From a virus, in the IMG/VR virus record IMGVR_UViG_3300035698_009992, positions 1 to 42,321 of that record: a stretch of 42,321 bases of DNA. One strand, written 5' to 3'. The notes below the pieces were generated by a model. That model was not told the origin of the DNA and did not search any database. It saw only the letters and a program-made list of their open reading frames with translations. Below, in pieces: positions 5,065 through 9,674 of this stretch (the first letter of the stretch is position 1; each line of letters begins with the position of its first letter). The translations under genes were made by a program, and so were the position numbers.

Positions 5065-5750
5065 GTGTTACATGGTGTTGGCCTCGGGTGCTACATTGTG
5101 TTGGCATATTGTGAGGCATAGTGTATTTAACATTGTGACCGAAGTTTATTTTTTTGGTGTCAGAATTTTGTTTGTTTAGCCCTGGTCTGATCCGTCCGGG
5201 CGGGGCTCATCCCGGGGAGTTGGCGCAGTTTACCGGCCGGGCTCAAATGATGCATTCCTTGCCAATCTTTATTAATGGATTAATAGAGTTATTAAGGATC
5301 ATTGAGGGTTAAATATCGCCCTCGCCATAATTATAAAACCTCGCCCCAAATGCTTTAAAGACTTATATATCTATAGGGGATGAAGGGGTAGCGTTGGCGT
5401 GCATGGTGTTGGCACTGTGATCGTGCTCATTGTTGCATGATGTAGCATGTTGATGCAGTATGTTAACACTGGGGGGGCGTGGTGTGTAACAGTTGTAGCT
5501 GTGTTTTACACCAGGATATAGTGTCTCATATTGTGTAGGGTGTCAACCCCTCTGTGAAACCAACCTATTTACTACATATATCTATTATTTAGATAAAGGT
5601 ACTGGGGTAGTAGTATGAATAGTCTTAGCATATACAGACTTCACCCTCACTATCACAGGGTGTTTCTCAACACAATATGTAACACTAAACACCTTGTAAA
5701 ACACTGTGTAAACCAGTTGTAGCCAACACCTGCAACACATTATGTAGCAC
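5065..5750. other. Candidate replication origin: opposed 17-18 bp iterons around AT-rich DNA
   Basis: Related elements with + strand consensus GTGYTACATNNTGTGTTG occur at 5065-5081 (GTGTTACATGGTGTTGG), 5088-5104 (GTGCTACATTGTGTTGG) and, degenerate, 5521-5536. The same element is inverted at 5668-5685 (CAACACAATATGTAACAC) and 5733-5750 (CAACACATTATGTAGCAC). Half-elements include CATGGTGTTGGC at 5402-5413, identical to 5071-5082. A second motif, GTGTAA(nn)CAGTTGTAG, recurs near 5484 and 5706, with a weaker copy near 5812. An AT-rich stretch lies at about 5565-5600, and a GC-rich island at about 5170-5250. Perfect DnaA boxes sit at 4879-4887 and, inverted, at 6354-6362. No protein gene is supported here. 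Confidence 0.5.
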
Positions 5751-5864
5751 AAAGACATACTACTTCACCCCGGTGTGGACACAAAAAAACACTATAGGAA
5801 GCGGTGTTCCAGTGTGTAAACAGTATGCAAGGCGGAGGTGGGAGAAATCTTAATTTGGGATTTT

Positions 5865-5999
5865 CTATATATCAGAATTCCTATATGGGGGGGATTCTTT
5901 TTCAGGCTGGTCCCTTAATTTCCACCGTTTCATCCAACCTCGTTTCCAAGGTTTGCAGAGGGCACATGATCTCTTTTTATTCTTATATTGTTTTCGCAT
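5865..5999 (-). CDS. 44-aa basic CxxC protein
   Basis: MRKQYKNKKRSCALCKPWK leads into RGWMKRWKLRDQPEK. The 'KKRSCxLCKPxKRGWxxRW' pattern matches a small family I remember as widespread in bacteria and mobile elements, of unknown function. It has a CxxC knuckle in a highly basic context that suggests nucleic-acid binding. It is the last of three micro-genes running left from 6306. Unlike the two before it, it has no Shine-Dalgarno site; TATAGT lies 3 nt before its ATG. Confidence 0.6.
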   Translation of the reverse strand: MRKQYKNKKRSCALCKPWKRGWMKRWKLRDQPEKESPPYRNSDI

Positions 6000-6016
6000 A
6001 ATACTATAGATAATTT

Positions 6017-6045
6017 GGGCCAGGAATAATTTTTACCCCCGGCCC
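6017..6045. other. GC-rich hairpin between micro-genes
   Basis: GGGCCAGG (6017-6024) pairs with CCCGGCCC (6038-6045), with one A-C mismatch on the + strand that becomes a G-T wobble on the minus strand. It is followed on + by TTTATTT. It separates the 48-aa and 44-aa genes and may act as a weak terminator or processing hairpin. Confidence 0.35.
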
Positions 6046-6046
6046 T

Positions 6047-6193
6047 TTATTTACGCTTACGACGATAGTTTTTCCTCTTGCGCTGGCCTAAATGTGGGCA
6101 GTCAACAACAGAACAGTATCGCCTTATTTTCTGCATTGTAGCGGATTGCTTATGCAGCTTACAGTAGTAATATAAATAAGGTTTTAGCTTCAT
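6047..6193 (-). CDS. 48-aa very basic zinc-finger-like protein with strong SD
   Basis: MKLKPYLYYYCKLHKQS is followed by YCSVVDCPHLGQRKRK and ends in an RRKRK tail. The CxxH...CxxxxCxH spacing could bind zinc, and the Arg/Lys tail suggests nucleic-acid binding. Its ATG (6191-6193) has the canonical ribosome site AAGGAG 7 nt upstream, which is exceptional in this genome. The SD overlaps the end of the preceding 33-aa gene, so the two are coupled. Confidence 0.6.
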   Translation of the reverse strand: MKLKPYLYYYCKLHKQSATMQKIRRYCSVVDCPHLGQRKRKNYRRKRK

Positions 6194-6204
6194 TCCATAT
6201 CTCC

Positions 6205-6306
6205 TTATTTGGGTGTTTCTGGATACTCTCCGAATAATACTATCAATATCATAACAATAATAGCTATAATAAAGAAAAAATTTTCTTCTCGAGTATGTTT
6301 CTTCAT
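6205..6306 (-). CDS. 33-aa membrane peptide with strong SD
   Basis: MKKHTREEN precedes a hydrophobic helix (FFFIIAIIVMILIVLF, residues about 10-25) and a short EYPETPK tail. The start at 6304-6306 follows AAGGAGGGAGGT, a near-perfect Shine-Dalgarno sequence, in contrast to the SD-less style elsewhere. It is transcribed away from the inverted DnaA box. The function is unknown. Confidence 0.55.
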   Translation of the reverse strand: MKKHTREENFFFIIAIIVMILIVLFGEYPETPK

Positions 6307-6353
6307 ACCTCCCTCCTTGCGTTTAATATAAACTGTGAACGATAGTTGCCATC

Positions 6354-6362
6354 TGTGGATAA
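6354..6362 (-). other. DnaA box
   Basis: TGTGGATAA is the exact reverse complement of TTATCCACA. It sits opposite in orientation to the box at 4879-4887, and its last base is 3 bp from the -35 box of the rightward promoter at 6366. DnaA binding here could couple replication initiation with transcription. Confidence 0.55.
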
Positions 6363-6365
6363 CTA

Positions 6366-6395
6366 TTGACAAGATTTAAAGATATTTGATATAAT
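6366..6395 (+). promoter_or_regulatory. Consensus sigma70 promoter with extended -10 for an ncRNA
   Basis: TTGACA (6366-6371) and TATAAT (6390-6395) are both perfect, with an 18-bp spacer. TGA before the -10 gives an extended -10. Initiation should be near 6402. No open reading frame follows before the terminator. Confidence 0.85.
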
Positions 6396-6401
6396 CAAGC
6401 T

Positions 6402-6640
6402 GATCGGGTTAAGATCATGATTTTATTTAGTTCAAATGTTCACTGCCACCCGACTTAGACTGGAATTCTAAGATCGGCTCTGGCGCCAGTTGCATCTGGC
6501 TACGGTAGAGCTATCCTCATAAGTTACTTTTGACATTTTCAAAGTGCATACGACCTATAGCTTACTGTAAAAAACTCAGAGCTCCGAAGAATTGAAGTAA
6601 AACCTTTACAAGAAACTCTCATTATTGGGAGTTTTTTGTT
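6402..6640 (+). ncRNA. Structured non-coding RNA, about 240 nt, unknown family
   Basis: The segment is defined by a consensus promoter and an intrinsic terminator and lacks a plausible ORF. Visible helices are TCGGGT (6404-6409) with ACCCGA (6448-6453), competing with a local TGATC/GATCA hairpin; CTTAGA (6454-6459) with TCTAAG (6467-6472); GCTCT (6477-6481) with AGAGC (6507-6511), enclosing GCCAG (6485-6489) with CTGGC (6496-6500); and ACTTT/AAAGT at about 6526-6545. I do not see tmRNA, RNase P or tRNA signatures. It could be a regulatory RNA, an origin-associated RNA or a host-mimic RNA. Confidence 0.7.
6613..6640 (+). terminator. Rho-independent terminator of the ncRNA
   Basis: AAACTCTC (6613-6620) pairs with GGGAGTTT (6627-6634), including one G-T pair, across an ATTATT loop. 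The stem is followed directly by TTTG TT. Confidence 0.8.
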
Positions 6641-7150
6641 TGGGGGCATAGGTAGTTCCAGCCATGCGTGAGCACGATTATCACCGCTTATACCCCTTCA
6701 CCCCGTGCGTGTCGAAGTTGAGAAAACACTCGTCTATAGGCTATTCGCCCATTGTAGTACCCGTCCCGGAATCTCACCGGGAAGGTCCCACTGACTTAAC
6801 GCGTTATTCATATTGGCCATCAGTGATCGTTATTACTTCCTGACCTTCTGCGCGCGCCGCTTATTAATGGAGCTGATTTATGGCTCACACGCGACGATTT
6901 TCTAGTAGGTTTTTAGCCTAGTCAATACAAACTAATAAGGACAGGGGTAAGGAGGTGATTAGAGAATTAACTCAAGACATAGTTCCCCATGCCCGGGGAT
7001 ATTGCTTATCTAATTGGCAAGATAGCAACAAAATGTACGAGGTTTTTTGTCCCCCCACCCTTATTAATCTGTATTTAATTTAAAAGTTCGAGATTTGGTT
7101 AGCCCCACGCGACTATGCATTCGCTAGGGCCCTACTAACATGAAGCATCA
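6641..7150 (+). other. Structured, GC-richer non-coding tract with a perfect 16S 3'-end complement
   Basis: About 500 bp lack a credible gene but hold many short perfect helices, for example TCCCGG/CCGGGA around AATCTCA near 6765-6783, CACTGA/TCAGTG near 6789-6825, GAGC/GCTC near 6870-6886, and TCCCC/GGGGA around 6983-6999. TAAGGAGGTGAT at 6948-6959 is a 12-nt exact complement of the conserved 16S rRNA 3' end, yet no properly spaced start codon follows. The base composition differs from the AT-rich surroundings. A large structured phage RNA is possible. Confidence 0.4.
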
Positions 7151-7156
7151 AAGCCA

Positions 7157-7189
7157 ATAAAAAAATCCAAACCCGAAATTAGGCTTGGA
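7157..7189 (-). terminator. Leftward intrinsic terminator
   Basis: On the minus strand, TCCAAGCC (7189-7182) pairs with GGGTTTGGA (7174-7166) and is followed by seven T's (7165-7159). It ends the short RNA started at about 7241. Confidence 0.75.
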
Positions 7190-7241
7190 CTGTTATATTG
7201 AATTTGATTTTATTCTGCATAGAGACTCTTTTATTTTTAGC
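7158..7241 (-). ncRNA. Short leftward RNA, about 84 nt, possible leader or attenuator
   Basis: The RNA is bounded by the promoter at 7248-7276 and the terminator at 7157-7189. It contains a 13-codon frame starting at 7218-7220 (MQNKIKFNITVQA) whose stop lies inside the terminator hairpin, a layout reminiscent of leader-peptide attenuators. Nothing coding follows on the minus strand for about 850 nt. It may be a stand-alone small RNA or the 5' attenuated leader of a longer leftward transcript. Confidence 0.55.
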
Positions 7242-7247
7242 TTCTTA

Positions 7248-7276
7248 ATAATAAAGCCTTTATTTATCGTTGTCAA
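7248..7276 (-). promoter_or_regulatory. Near-consensus leftward promoter
   Basis: On the minus strand, TTGACA (7271-7276, 6/6) and TATTAT (7248-7253, 5/6) are separated by exactly 17 bp. It is back-to-back with the rightward late promoter, the two -35 boxes being 19 bp apart. Confidence 0.75.
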
Positions 7277-7295
7277 TACCAAAACAGTTGATAAG

Positions 7296-7324
7296 TTGTG
7301 CAAACATTGCATATGTACTATAAT
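7296..7324 (+). promoter_or_regulatory. Late-operon promoter, apparently leaderless, with a spacer palindrome
   Basis: TTGTGC (7296-7301) and TATAAT (7319-7324) are 17 bp apart. TATAAT lies 6 nt before the ATG at 7331, so transcription should start at or next to the start codon. The palindrome TGCAA-ACA-TTGCA (7299-7311) lies across the -35/spacer and could be a repressor or activator site. Confidence 0.6.
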
Positions 7325-7330
7325 AACCGC

Positions 7331-7951
7331 ATGAAACCTATAAATTCCATTATTACAAAGTCTTCTCACTTCGATGCGATCATGCAGAAGTATGAAGATA
7401 TTGGGTCTTCGATGACCAATGCTAAATTTTTTAATGAATATGTAGTGAAATATGATCCCAGCTTAAAAATGAGATCATGGCAGAACTTCATGAAGAAATT
7501 TAATGCAGGAGTTACTCTAAAAGCACAGGCCCTGATCGAAAGGGTAGCTGATACTCAGGTAACTACTATGCAGATGGAGGACAATTCACTTAAAAAGATA
7601 CTCGCTATTGCCGATTTATCACTCGATCAAATTGTTGAGAACCCGAATTTACTCGCGGCTGTCCCAATTGGTGAGAGAATGAATTGGCTTTTTAATTCCA
7701 TGAAGGCCAGGAGCACCAGAATGGTAGCCCTAACTAAAGTCCAGCAAGAAAAGCGTAAATCTTCTATGTATGAGGACATGCTTGAGGGCTCTCAGTATGG
7801 CGCGATCGATGTTGGTGAGGCTGAAAATGCAGCGAGTGTCATAGCCGAGCCAAAGGAGGCACCTGAGGCAGAAGTCAAAGAAGTCGAAGAAGTCCCTATT
7901 AAAGAGGAAAAAGAGGCTAAAACAGTAGTTTTTAATCCTGAAGATCTTTAG
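7331..7951 (+). CDS. terS: Probable terminase small subunit
   Basis: The 206-aa product lies directly before the large terminase gene with a 1-bp gap. I chose the ATG at 7331 (MKPINSIITKSSHF) because TATAAT is 6 nt upstream, as at two other promoters here; a GTG at 7298 or ATG at 7313 in the same frame is possible. An N-terminal helical region (MTNAKFFNEYVVKYDPSLKM) could be the DNA-binding HTH of TerS. The middle is helical, as expected for oligomerisation. The C-terminus is acidic and low-complexity (EAPEAEVKEVEEVPIKEEKEAK) and probably contacts TerL. The assignment rests mainly on position. Confidence 0.6.
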   Translation: MKPINSIITKSSHFDAIMQKYEDIGSSMTNAKFFNEYVVKYDPSLKMRSWQNFMKKFNAGVTLKAQALIERVADTQVTTMQMEDNSLKKILAIADLSLDQIVENPNLLAAVPIGERMNWLFNSMKARSTRMVALTKVQQEKRKSSMYEDMLEGSQYGAIDVGEAENAASVIAEPKEAPEAEVKEVEEVPIKEEKEAKTVVFNPEDL

Positions 7952-7952
7952 A

Positions 7953-9674
7953 ATGACAACTGATTATTCAAAAATAATAACCGATTTATCTACCGAAGAT
8001 AGGGTAGCAGTCATGCCAATGGCCGTTGCTATAGCCAAAGGACGCGTTGATCCTGTATATTTTGGTGAATACTTTTTAGGTTTACATTTTCACGCTGCTC
8101 AGAAGATATGGCTCTGGCTGACGACAAAAACACAGATCCAGATGGCTGTTGACCTGGCAGAAGCAGAGGGAATCTACATACCAGACCTTGAAGATTTGCT
8201 AGTTCATCCTTTTTTAAAAAATATATTATGCCCGGCAAATAGATTTGGTAAGACCTTTATTACATCTGTCAAGCATATATGGTATAATTTCTATAAGATA
8301 GGTTGTACTGGACCGCCTAAGTTTATCAAGGATGTCCGGTATGCTACTTTAAACATATCACCTCACTCGTTGCAGGTTGATGCAGCCTATAGATACATTG
8401 TAGATATTTTTAACGATAAACTCATTTTTAAATGGAATGGGGAGACAGTTAGAAATCATTGTCGTATAAAATCATTCCTGGTTAGTCATAAACAGACACG
8501 CCGGGAGATCCATTTTAACAACAATGCCTACATAAAGGGAGTCCCAACAGGAGAAGATCAGGCATCCTCTCTTGCCGGTACACAATTTTTCTATATTTCA
8601 TATGACGAAGCACCTCAATCGCTTCATTTAAAAAAAGAACTTCCTGCTAAGATTCAATCTCGTCTGATCGATTCAGGTGGACCACTAGATATTATTGGTA
8701 CGCCAGAAGTTGATAAACCATCACACGCTTATTATCAGAGGATTGTTAAACAAGGCATAGAATTGAAAAAAGGATTCTTCACTTTGCTTGGCAACTTGAA
8801 AGATAATATATTCATTGGCGATAATGAGAGAGACTCAGTTCTCGAATCGATTAAAGAAACAGATCCAGAAAAATACAGACAGGTAGCCTTCGGAGAATTT
8901 ATATCATCTGGTTCAAAACTTTTACCGATCATTGCAATTGAAAGATTATTTGATGACAGTTTCAAATTAGAGGCTGGAATACCAGGCAGAAAATATATCA
9001 TAGGCGTTGACTGGGGATTCTCAGACACAGGAGATCCTACGGTAATATACATATTCGATTACACCGCCCTGATGGAACTACTAGCTACTGGCAAGAATGA
9101 AGAAGAGAATCATATTCTTTACCGGGTAGTATTCAGAGAATCTATTAAAGGTGCATCACCATACGCAGCCTTGGCAAAATTGAAAATGCTACAACAAGAT
9201 TTCAATGATGCAATAATTATTCACGATTCATCTTCAATGGGTGGCGTGATGATTAAGAAGATGTTACACGAAATGAAAGTTAGACATCTATACGACTTTA
9301 GTATGGCCAAGAGTCCAAAAGATGAGATGCTATTCCTAATGTTGAGAGCACTAACATTCGGTCGTAAAACAAAACAAACCGAAGAAGGCAAGATAGAAGA
9401 ATTAACTCCTGACTTCGGCAAGGTTAGATCCTACTATATTTCAGATCTTGAGGAGCAGGCTGGCAACTACAGAGTTGATGATACAAAACTAGAGCAGGAT
9501 GAAGTTATGGCCTTTGGACTTCCACTATGGTATTGCGAAAGGAAGTTAGCAGGACATAAAACTAAAGTATTCAATCTTAATATACTGGCTGATAAACCAG
9601 AACAAATAATTTCTACTCCAAAAGATAAAACGGTAAAAGATAAATCATTCAATATAACAGAAAGAATTATTTAA
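7953..9674 (+). CDS. terL: Terminase large subunit (packaging ATPase-nuclease)
   Basis: This is the 573-aa motor that cuts concatemeric DNA and pumps it through the portal. The ATPase half has a Walker A-like CPANRFGKTF (residues 93-102, K100) and Walker B FFYISYDEAP with D218 and catalytic E219. The RNase H-like nuclease half shows GVDWGFSDTGDPT (D353), IIIHDSSSMGG (D425) and KLEQDEVMAF (D516), the three acidic residues expected to bind metal. The length is typical for the family. There is no Shine-Dalgarno sequence; the start is coupled to the upstream stop. Confidence 0.93.
   Translation: MTTDYSKIITDLSTEDRVAVMPMAVAIAKGRVDPVYFGEYFLGLHFHAAQKIWLWLTTKTQIQMAVDLAEAEGIYIPDLEDLLVHPFLKNILCPANRFGKTFITSVKHIWYNFYKIGCTGPPKFIKDVRYATLNISPHSLQVDAAYRYIVDIFNDKLIFKWNGETVRNHCRIKSFLVSHKQTRREIHFNNNAYIKGVPTGEDQASSLAGTQFFYISYDEAPQSLHLKKELPAKIQSRLIDSGGPLDIIGTPEVDKPSHAYYQRIVKQGIELKKGFFTLLGNLKDNIFIGDNERDSVLESIKETDPEKYRQVAFGEFISSGSKLLPIIAIERLFDDSFKLEAGIPGRKYIIGVDWGFSDTGDPTVIYIFDYTALMELLATGKNEEENHILYRVVFRESIKGASPYAALAKLKMLQQDFNDAIIIHDSSSMGGVMIKKMLHEMKVRHLYDFSMAKSPKDEMLFLMLRALTFGRKTKQTEEGKIEELTPDFGKVRSYYISDLEEQAGNYRVDDTKLEQDEVMAFGLPLWYCERKLAGHKTKVFNLNILADKPEQIISTPKDKTVKDKSFNITERII

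Follow-up and report, generated by a model that had tools for sequence, protein, structure and literature searches.

The window, by which we mean the whole viral record of 42,321 bases analysed here, probably contains a small gene (E2) that, judged from its sequence, makes an RNA and not a protein and that recurs in a group of uncultured bacterial viruses. E2 is a new family among phage small RNAs, without a catalogued counterpart. An earlier sequence-only reading had proposed an unrecognised non-coding RNA gene at this place, which is supported by seven syntenic members that each keep the promoter and the terminator. That reading had rightly singled out a new RNA gene, the evidence for which is conservation and not the helices it had listed.

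The late genes of the window lie on the + strand from approximately 7.3 kb onwards and include the large terminase, the portal and the major head protein. The remaining genes, towards both ends, are mostly on the - strand. E2 is located in a 2.2-kb gap without a convincing gene (5120-7330), flanked by divergent operons. Comparison of the large terminase with 50,697 phage records gave no match, which places the lineage outside the phages of that collection. The relatives used in this study were those of the large terminase found in viral contigs, together with the only prokaryotic contig that encodes one (L061). The latter is 4.8 kb long and part of a Candidatus Omnitrophota MAG, which was considered insufficient for naming a host. 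A search of the whole window for tRNA and tmRNA genes found none. The elements that delimit E2 and the neighbouring late operon are as follows.

6366-6395, + strand: sigma-70 promoter of E2, TTGACA-18-TATAAT with an extended -10
6609-6640, + strand: intrinsic terminator of E2
7319-7324, + strand: TATAAT, the -10 of the small-terminase promoter, 6 nt before the ATG at 7331
7331-7951, + strand: small terminase gene, first gene of the late operon, its role assigned from position and without a family match

The perfect promoter described by the sequence-only reading was borne out, with 12 of 12 matches: TTGACA at 6366-6371 is followed by an 18-nt spacer and the extended -10 TGATATAAT, which ends at 6395. 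The transcript, counted from its likely start at 6402 up to the terminator, measures approximately 239 nt, in agreement with the claimed segment of about 240 nt, and the terminator, described as clean, forms its helix with a pairing probability >0.99. The minimum free energy of the transcript is -70.9 kcal/mol (z -4.5), a value as low being reached by none of 200 shuffles; without the terminator z is -2.8, the terminator giving about half of the signal. The transcript strand of the window has no ORF longer than 21 codons, so that the proposed lack of coding capacity was confirmed. The proposed lack of likeness to any recognised RNA gene also held, as the Rfam covariance search gave no match at the gathering threshold, including the families of 6S RNA, tmRNA, RNase P RNA and other catalogued RNAs, and merely chance matches far below threshold at E values up to 10.

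E2 was recovered in seven distinct sequences and, in decayed form, in an eighth (L017), 0.5-2 kb upstream of the small-terminase gene. With the RNA of the window as query, blastn and nhmmer matched its 3' part in L003-L006, L014, L018 and L021, where the upstream region is present; L003-L006 and L014 are identical at the E2 site and were counted as one. A profile built from the window, L014, L018 and L021 found the left-out L013 (8.8e-12), L061 (4.4e-11) and L011 (2.6e-4), then the decayed L017 at 0.012 and nothing further below 1, with one match per locus searched. Direct DNA similarity to annotated phages was limited to one 37-nt chance match. Additional matches from a pattern scan of IMG/VR were rejected on reading, lying mostly in coding genes or sharing short motifs alone. 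The promoter is found at the same place in all seven members, with TTGACA in six; its score is at least 10 in six of the seven, compared with about 1% of background slices, and is weak in L018 (7.5). A hairpin with a U-run, read as a terminator, occupies the same position in all members.

Conservation is confined to the 3' 150 nt or so of the transcript. The following parts can be distinguished in the window.

6402-6492, + strand: 5' extension, specific to the window, holding a hairpin at 6454-6472 and a proposed switch
6493-6640, + strand: conserved core of E2, about 150 nt at the 3' end, defined from the relatives (match to model R1 at 6493-6639)
6507-6514, + strand: motif 1, AGAGCUAU, in most relatives situated in a hairpin loop whose stem covaries; its flanks in the window form no contiguous stem
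6541-6555, + strand: motif 2, AAAGUGCAUACGACC, family form AAAGNNCRUACR
6569-6582, + strand: motif 3, AAAAAACUCAGAGC, from the comparison of E2 members

Every member shows, in this order, the promoter, the AGAGCUAU block, a spacer of 26-29 nt, AAAGNNCRUACR, an A-rich stretch, after which CUCAGAGC usually comes, and the terminator, within a total length of 137-239 nt. Motif 1 reads ACAGCUAU in L061, and the AAAGNNCRUACR block shows small departures in L014 and L011. The stems enclosing AGAGCUAU differ from member to member (TTCTATAG/CTATAGAA, ACGAGGAG/CTCTTCGT, TAGCTA/TAGCTA, ATAGAT/ATCTAT), and the hairpin reaches a combined p of 5e-5 without the window and 1e-4 with it. For the window alone p is 0.52 and the stem is not contiguous, perhaps due to replacement of its 5' arm by the 90-nt extension. 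Besides the terminator, this hairpin is the only covarying helix of E2; no further helix or pseudoknot between the conserved blocks was convincing. Covariation, which had been suggested as a check of the proposed RNA, is thus present in modest form, as one hairpin that in its contiguous form is absent from the window.

Because a reading frame is open across the core in some members, coding was tested. In L018, L013 and L021 the frame of AGAGCTAT stays open over 60-100 codons; it is interrupted by stops in the window and in L014, lacks a start codon in L061 and L011, and was rejected as a gene. Motifs 1 and 2 are separated by 26 or 29 nt in five members and by 28 nt in two, which is a relative frame shift, and the frame of motif 2 in L013 and L021 differs from that in the other members. 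Since the same conserved nucleotides stand in different frames, the blocks are kept as nucleic acid and not as codons. Several of them are short and linear, and in most members an inverted repeat surrounds AGAGCTAT, as might be expected of DNA sites for a regulator or for recombination, with the RNA incidental. We regard this as the least probable of the explanations weighed here, since the promoter just upstream and the terminator just downstream are found in all members while the distance to other elements varies, and since the + strand folds better than the - strand, relative to shuffles, in seven of seven members.

The 5' part of E2 is not shared. Its approximately 90 nt in the window have no similarity in any relative, and in L021 this space is filled by a tRNA-Met gene (7076-7148, + strand), which begins about 10 nt past the -10. 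The perfect helices listed by the sequence-only reading do not exceed chance: the 5' part has two 6-bp helices compared with 1.05 expected (28% of shuffles have as many), and the whole RNA 13 compared with 8.2 (14% of shuffles). The two 5' pairings named as mutually exclusive both exist as sequence, but in the ensemble TGATC/GATCA has a probability of 0.94 and TCGGGT/ACCCGA of 0.005. As both lie in the part common to no relative, the proposed switch is specific to the window, and the idea of ligand sensing, which was built on these two pairings, lost its basis, the two not both being populated. For the mimicry of a host RNA, also put forward, no host RNA was identified as a model. The 10-nt stretch GTTCACTGCC of the 5' part resembles the first bases of certain type I CRISPR repeats; this likeness was set aside because the 5' part is not conserved.

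We think it reasonably probable that E2 is an independent phage gene whose product, a small non-coding RNA, acts in trans on a conserved partner. This is suggested by the promoter, the terminator, the lack of coding capacity, the seven members, the three blocks at nearly fixed spacing and the one covarying hairpin; an own promoter and terminator, a non-coding transcript and conservation are general marks of trans-acting phage small RNAs. E2 would be transcribed by the host sigma-70 RNA polymerase into a stable RNA, about 140-240 nt long, in which the surface that binds the partner in trans may be formed by the AGAGCUAU loop together with two unpaired blocks, AAAGNNCRUACR and CUCAGAGC. Candidates for this partner are RNAs and proteins of the host as well as phage proteins. 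The 5' part would be free to change and could carry another stable RNA, such as the tRNA-Met of L021. A scan of E2 for antisense matches to phage gene starts in five genomes, covering 27 ortholog groups, yielded no conserved target (best combined p 0.029), and antisense control of phage genes is therefore not supported.

E2 precedes the late operon, shares its strand and has a terminator soon after its promoter, and might be read as a cis-acting leader at whose terminator transcription stops until an antiterminator (lambda Q-like) or the RNA itself (HK022 put-like) permits read-through. The pR'-tR' region of phage lambda consists of a promoter and a terminator upstream of the late operon and shares this layout; more generally, E2 resembles the lambda 6S/pR'-tR' leader and HK022 put RNA in that a promoter, a short RNA and a terminator precede a late or an early operon. 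Unlike in these systems, a promoter of its own seems to serve the first late gene here. The small terminase probably starts with the ATG at 7331, and the listed GTG at 7298 sits upstream of the promoter; with the -10 only 6 nt from the ATG, the mRNA is probably leaderless. A similar TATAAT near the ATG is found at the small terminase of several relatives, and an own near-ATG promoter in most genomes examined. The large terminase (7953-9674) follows directly in the operon. Furthermore, E2 and the operon are separated by a gap of about 0.5-2 kb that is filled by units on the opposite strand, namely a second conserved element, E3, in eight of eight loci with the region, as well as three predicted tRNA genes (L021) and a 123-aa ORF (L013). 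The opposite-strand units and the separate terminase promoter make E2 look like its own transcription unit, and a leader function is unlikely. Across L021 7076-8602, the tRNA-Met (+ strand) precedes E2, and a tRNA-Gln, a tRNA-Asn and an odd tRNA (- strand) lie beyond E3.

The surroundings of E2 could also fit an accessory RNA, either a primer or inhibitor acting at an origin within the repeat-rich gap or a motor RNA comparable to the pRNA of phi29: the gap is non-coding, lies between divergent operons and is close to repeats, the terminase genes and a DnaA-type box.

6354-6362, - strand: DnaA-box-like TTATCCACA (TGTGGATAA on the + strand), adjoining the E2 promoter only in the window and L021

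The box noted beside the promoter is indeed present, but adjoins the E2 promoter in only two of the seven relatives, so that it does not tie E2 to replication; the proposed control of replication had rested on it. Boxes like TGTGGATAA are enriched upstream of the small-terminase start (seven in 13 stretches of 160 nt, compared with 0.04 expected per stretch). E2 has no match to the Rfam model of phi29-type pRNA or to any other Rfam family, and these phages, unlike phi29, encode a large and a likely small terminase. An accessory role of either kind is slightly less likely than a leader function.

E3 is a second conserved RNA, pseudoknotted and always found with E2.

6690-6898, - strand: E3 of the window (core 6741-6898)
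minus strand in relatives: E3 at L011 2372-2529, L014 8718-8876, L018 9053-9209, L061 1069-1226, L021 7389-7549, L013 5922-6075 and L017 966-1128

The structural evidence for E3, which is conserved in all eight loci with the region, is stronger than that for E2, and E3 covaries far more strongly. Its - strand fold comprises 35 pairs, with 97.6% of cells kept across six sequences; 21 pairs are changed on both sides compared with 10.3 expected, and the covariation score is 0.68 compared with 0.26 in shuffles, of which 0 of 500 reach it, the structure being drawn on the same sequences as were scored. Independent of this is the recovery of the left-out L013 and L017 by the covariance model at about 1e-21. 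In the pseudoknot helix (columns 87-92 with 118-123), five of six pairs show changes on both sides. Sixteen G-U pairs on the - strand, compared with one A-C that would favour the + strand, assign E3 to the - strand. E3 had no match in Rfam and no direct DNA similarity in phages, and the E2-E3 stretch of L061 had no similarity to plasmids. Two extra matches to the E3 pattern (L063, L064) were judged on reading to be due to chance. The co-occurrence of E2 and E3 raises the possibility, a rather improbable one, that the two make up a single phage RNA machine: a compact RNA-based module without kinship to known families, kept throughout the lineage between the early and late operons and open to the attachment of tRNA genes.

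The distant terminase clade (L019, L020, L033-L035) has neither E2 nor E3. Divergent from the small terminase, its members carry a further non-coding stretch that is conserved, about 230 nt long and bounded by promoter- and terminator-like ends (GAGGGCTAATCC...GCTACC...ACAGAGC).

minus strand in the distant clade: conserved non-coding stretch at L019 2080-2450, L020 9150-9460, L033 3010-3360, L034 150-570 and L035 1690-2070

To our knowledge, few phage RNAs besides tRNAs are understood, and the large GOLLD and ROOL RNAs have no known function. Being small, conserved and simple, and having a well-defined core next to an exchangeable 5' part, E2 lends itself to identifying the binding partners of such RNAs, and the covariance-supported E3 offers a second target from the same genomes. 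GOLLD is a phage-borne RNA of unknown function with a conserved 3' region and a variable 5' region; it occurs near tRNAs, its linker region can carry tRNAs, and in one example that was studied it follows a Met-tRNA (PMC12286853). E2 likewise has a conserved 3' core and a variable 5' part, with a tRNA-Met in that space in L021 only. This likeness is one of layout only: GOLLD is often longer than 800 nt, compared with 140-240 nt for E2, and has a large, ornate multi-pseudoknot fold that oligomerises, whereas E2 has one supported covarying hairpin. With the Rfam covariance model of GOLLD, neither the window nor the scanned loci reached the gathering level; tRNAs were the sole Rfam matches there. 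Among phage small RNAs, 24B_1 of phage Phi24B is described as a small phage-encoded non-coding RNA (PMC10732415). E2 is also small, phage-encoded, non-coding and located outside coding genes, but no target was predicted for it and its sequence is unrelated to catalogued families.

Some other elements were observed in the gap. Two further non-coding blocks of the window are conserved in the lineage, at 5592-5672 (GAGGGT...TACCCC...CTACC) and at 5780-5802 (ACAAAAAAACACTATAGGAAGC). Short repeats of the TGTAACAC/TGTTGCA type are numerous at 5390-5780 and are possibly replication iterons. The sequence TAAGGAGGTGAT at 6950-6965 is a 12-nt perfect complement of the usual 3' end of 16S rRNA; it has no convincing gene behind it and was not seen in L061. 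Finally, a short unit on the - strand (7276-7164) consists of TTGACA-17-TATTAT with a terminator-like hairpin about 55 nt later, and similar units were seen by eye in L014 and L018.
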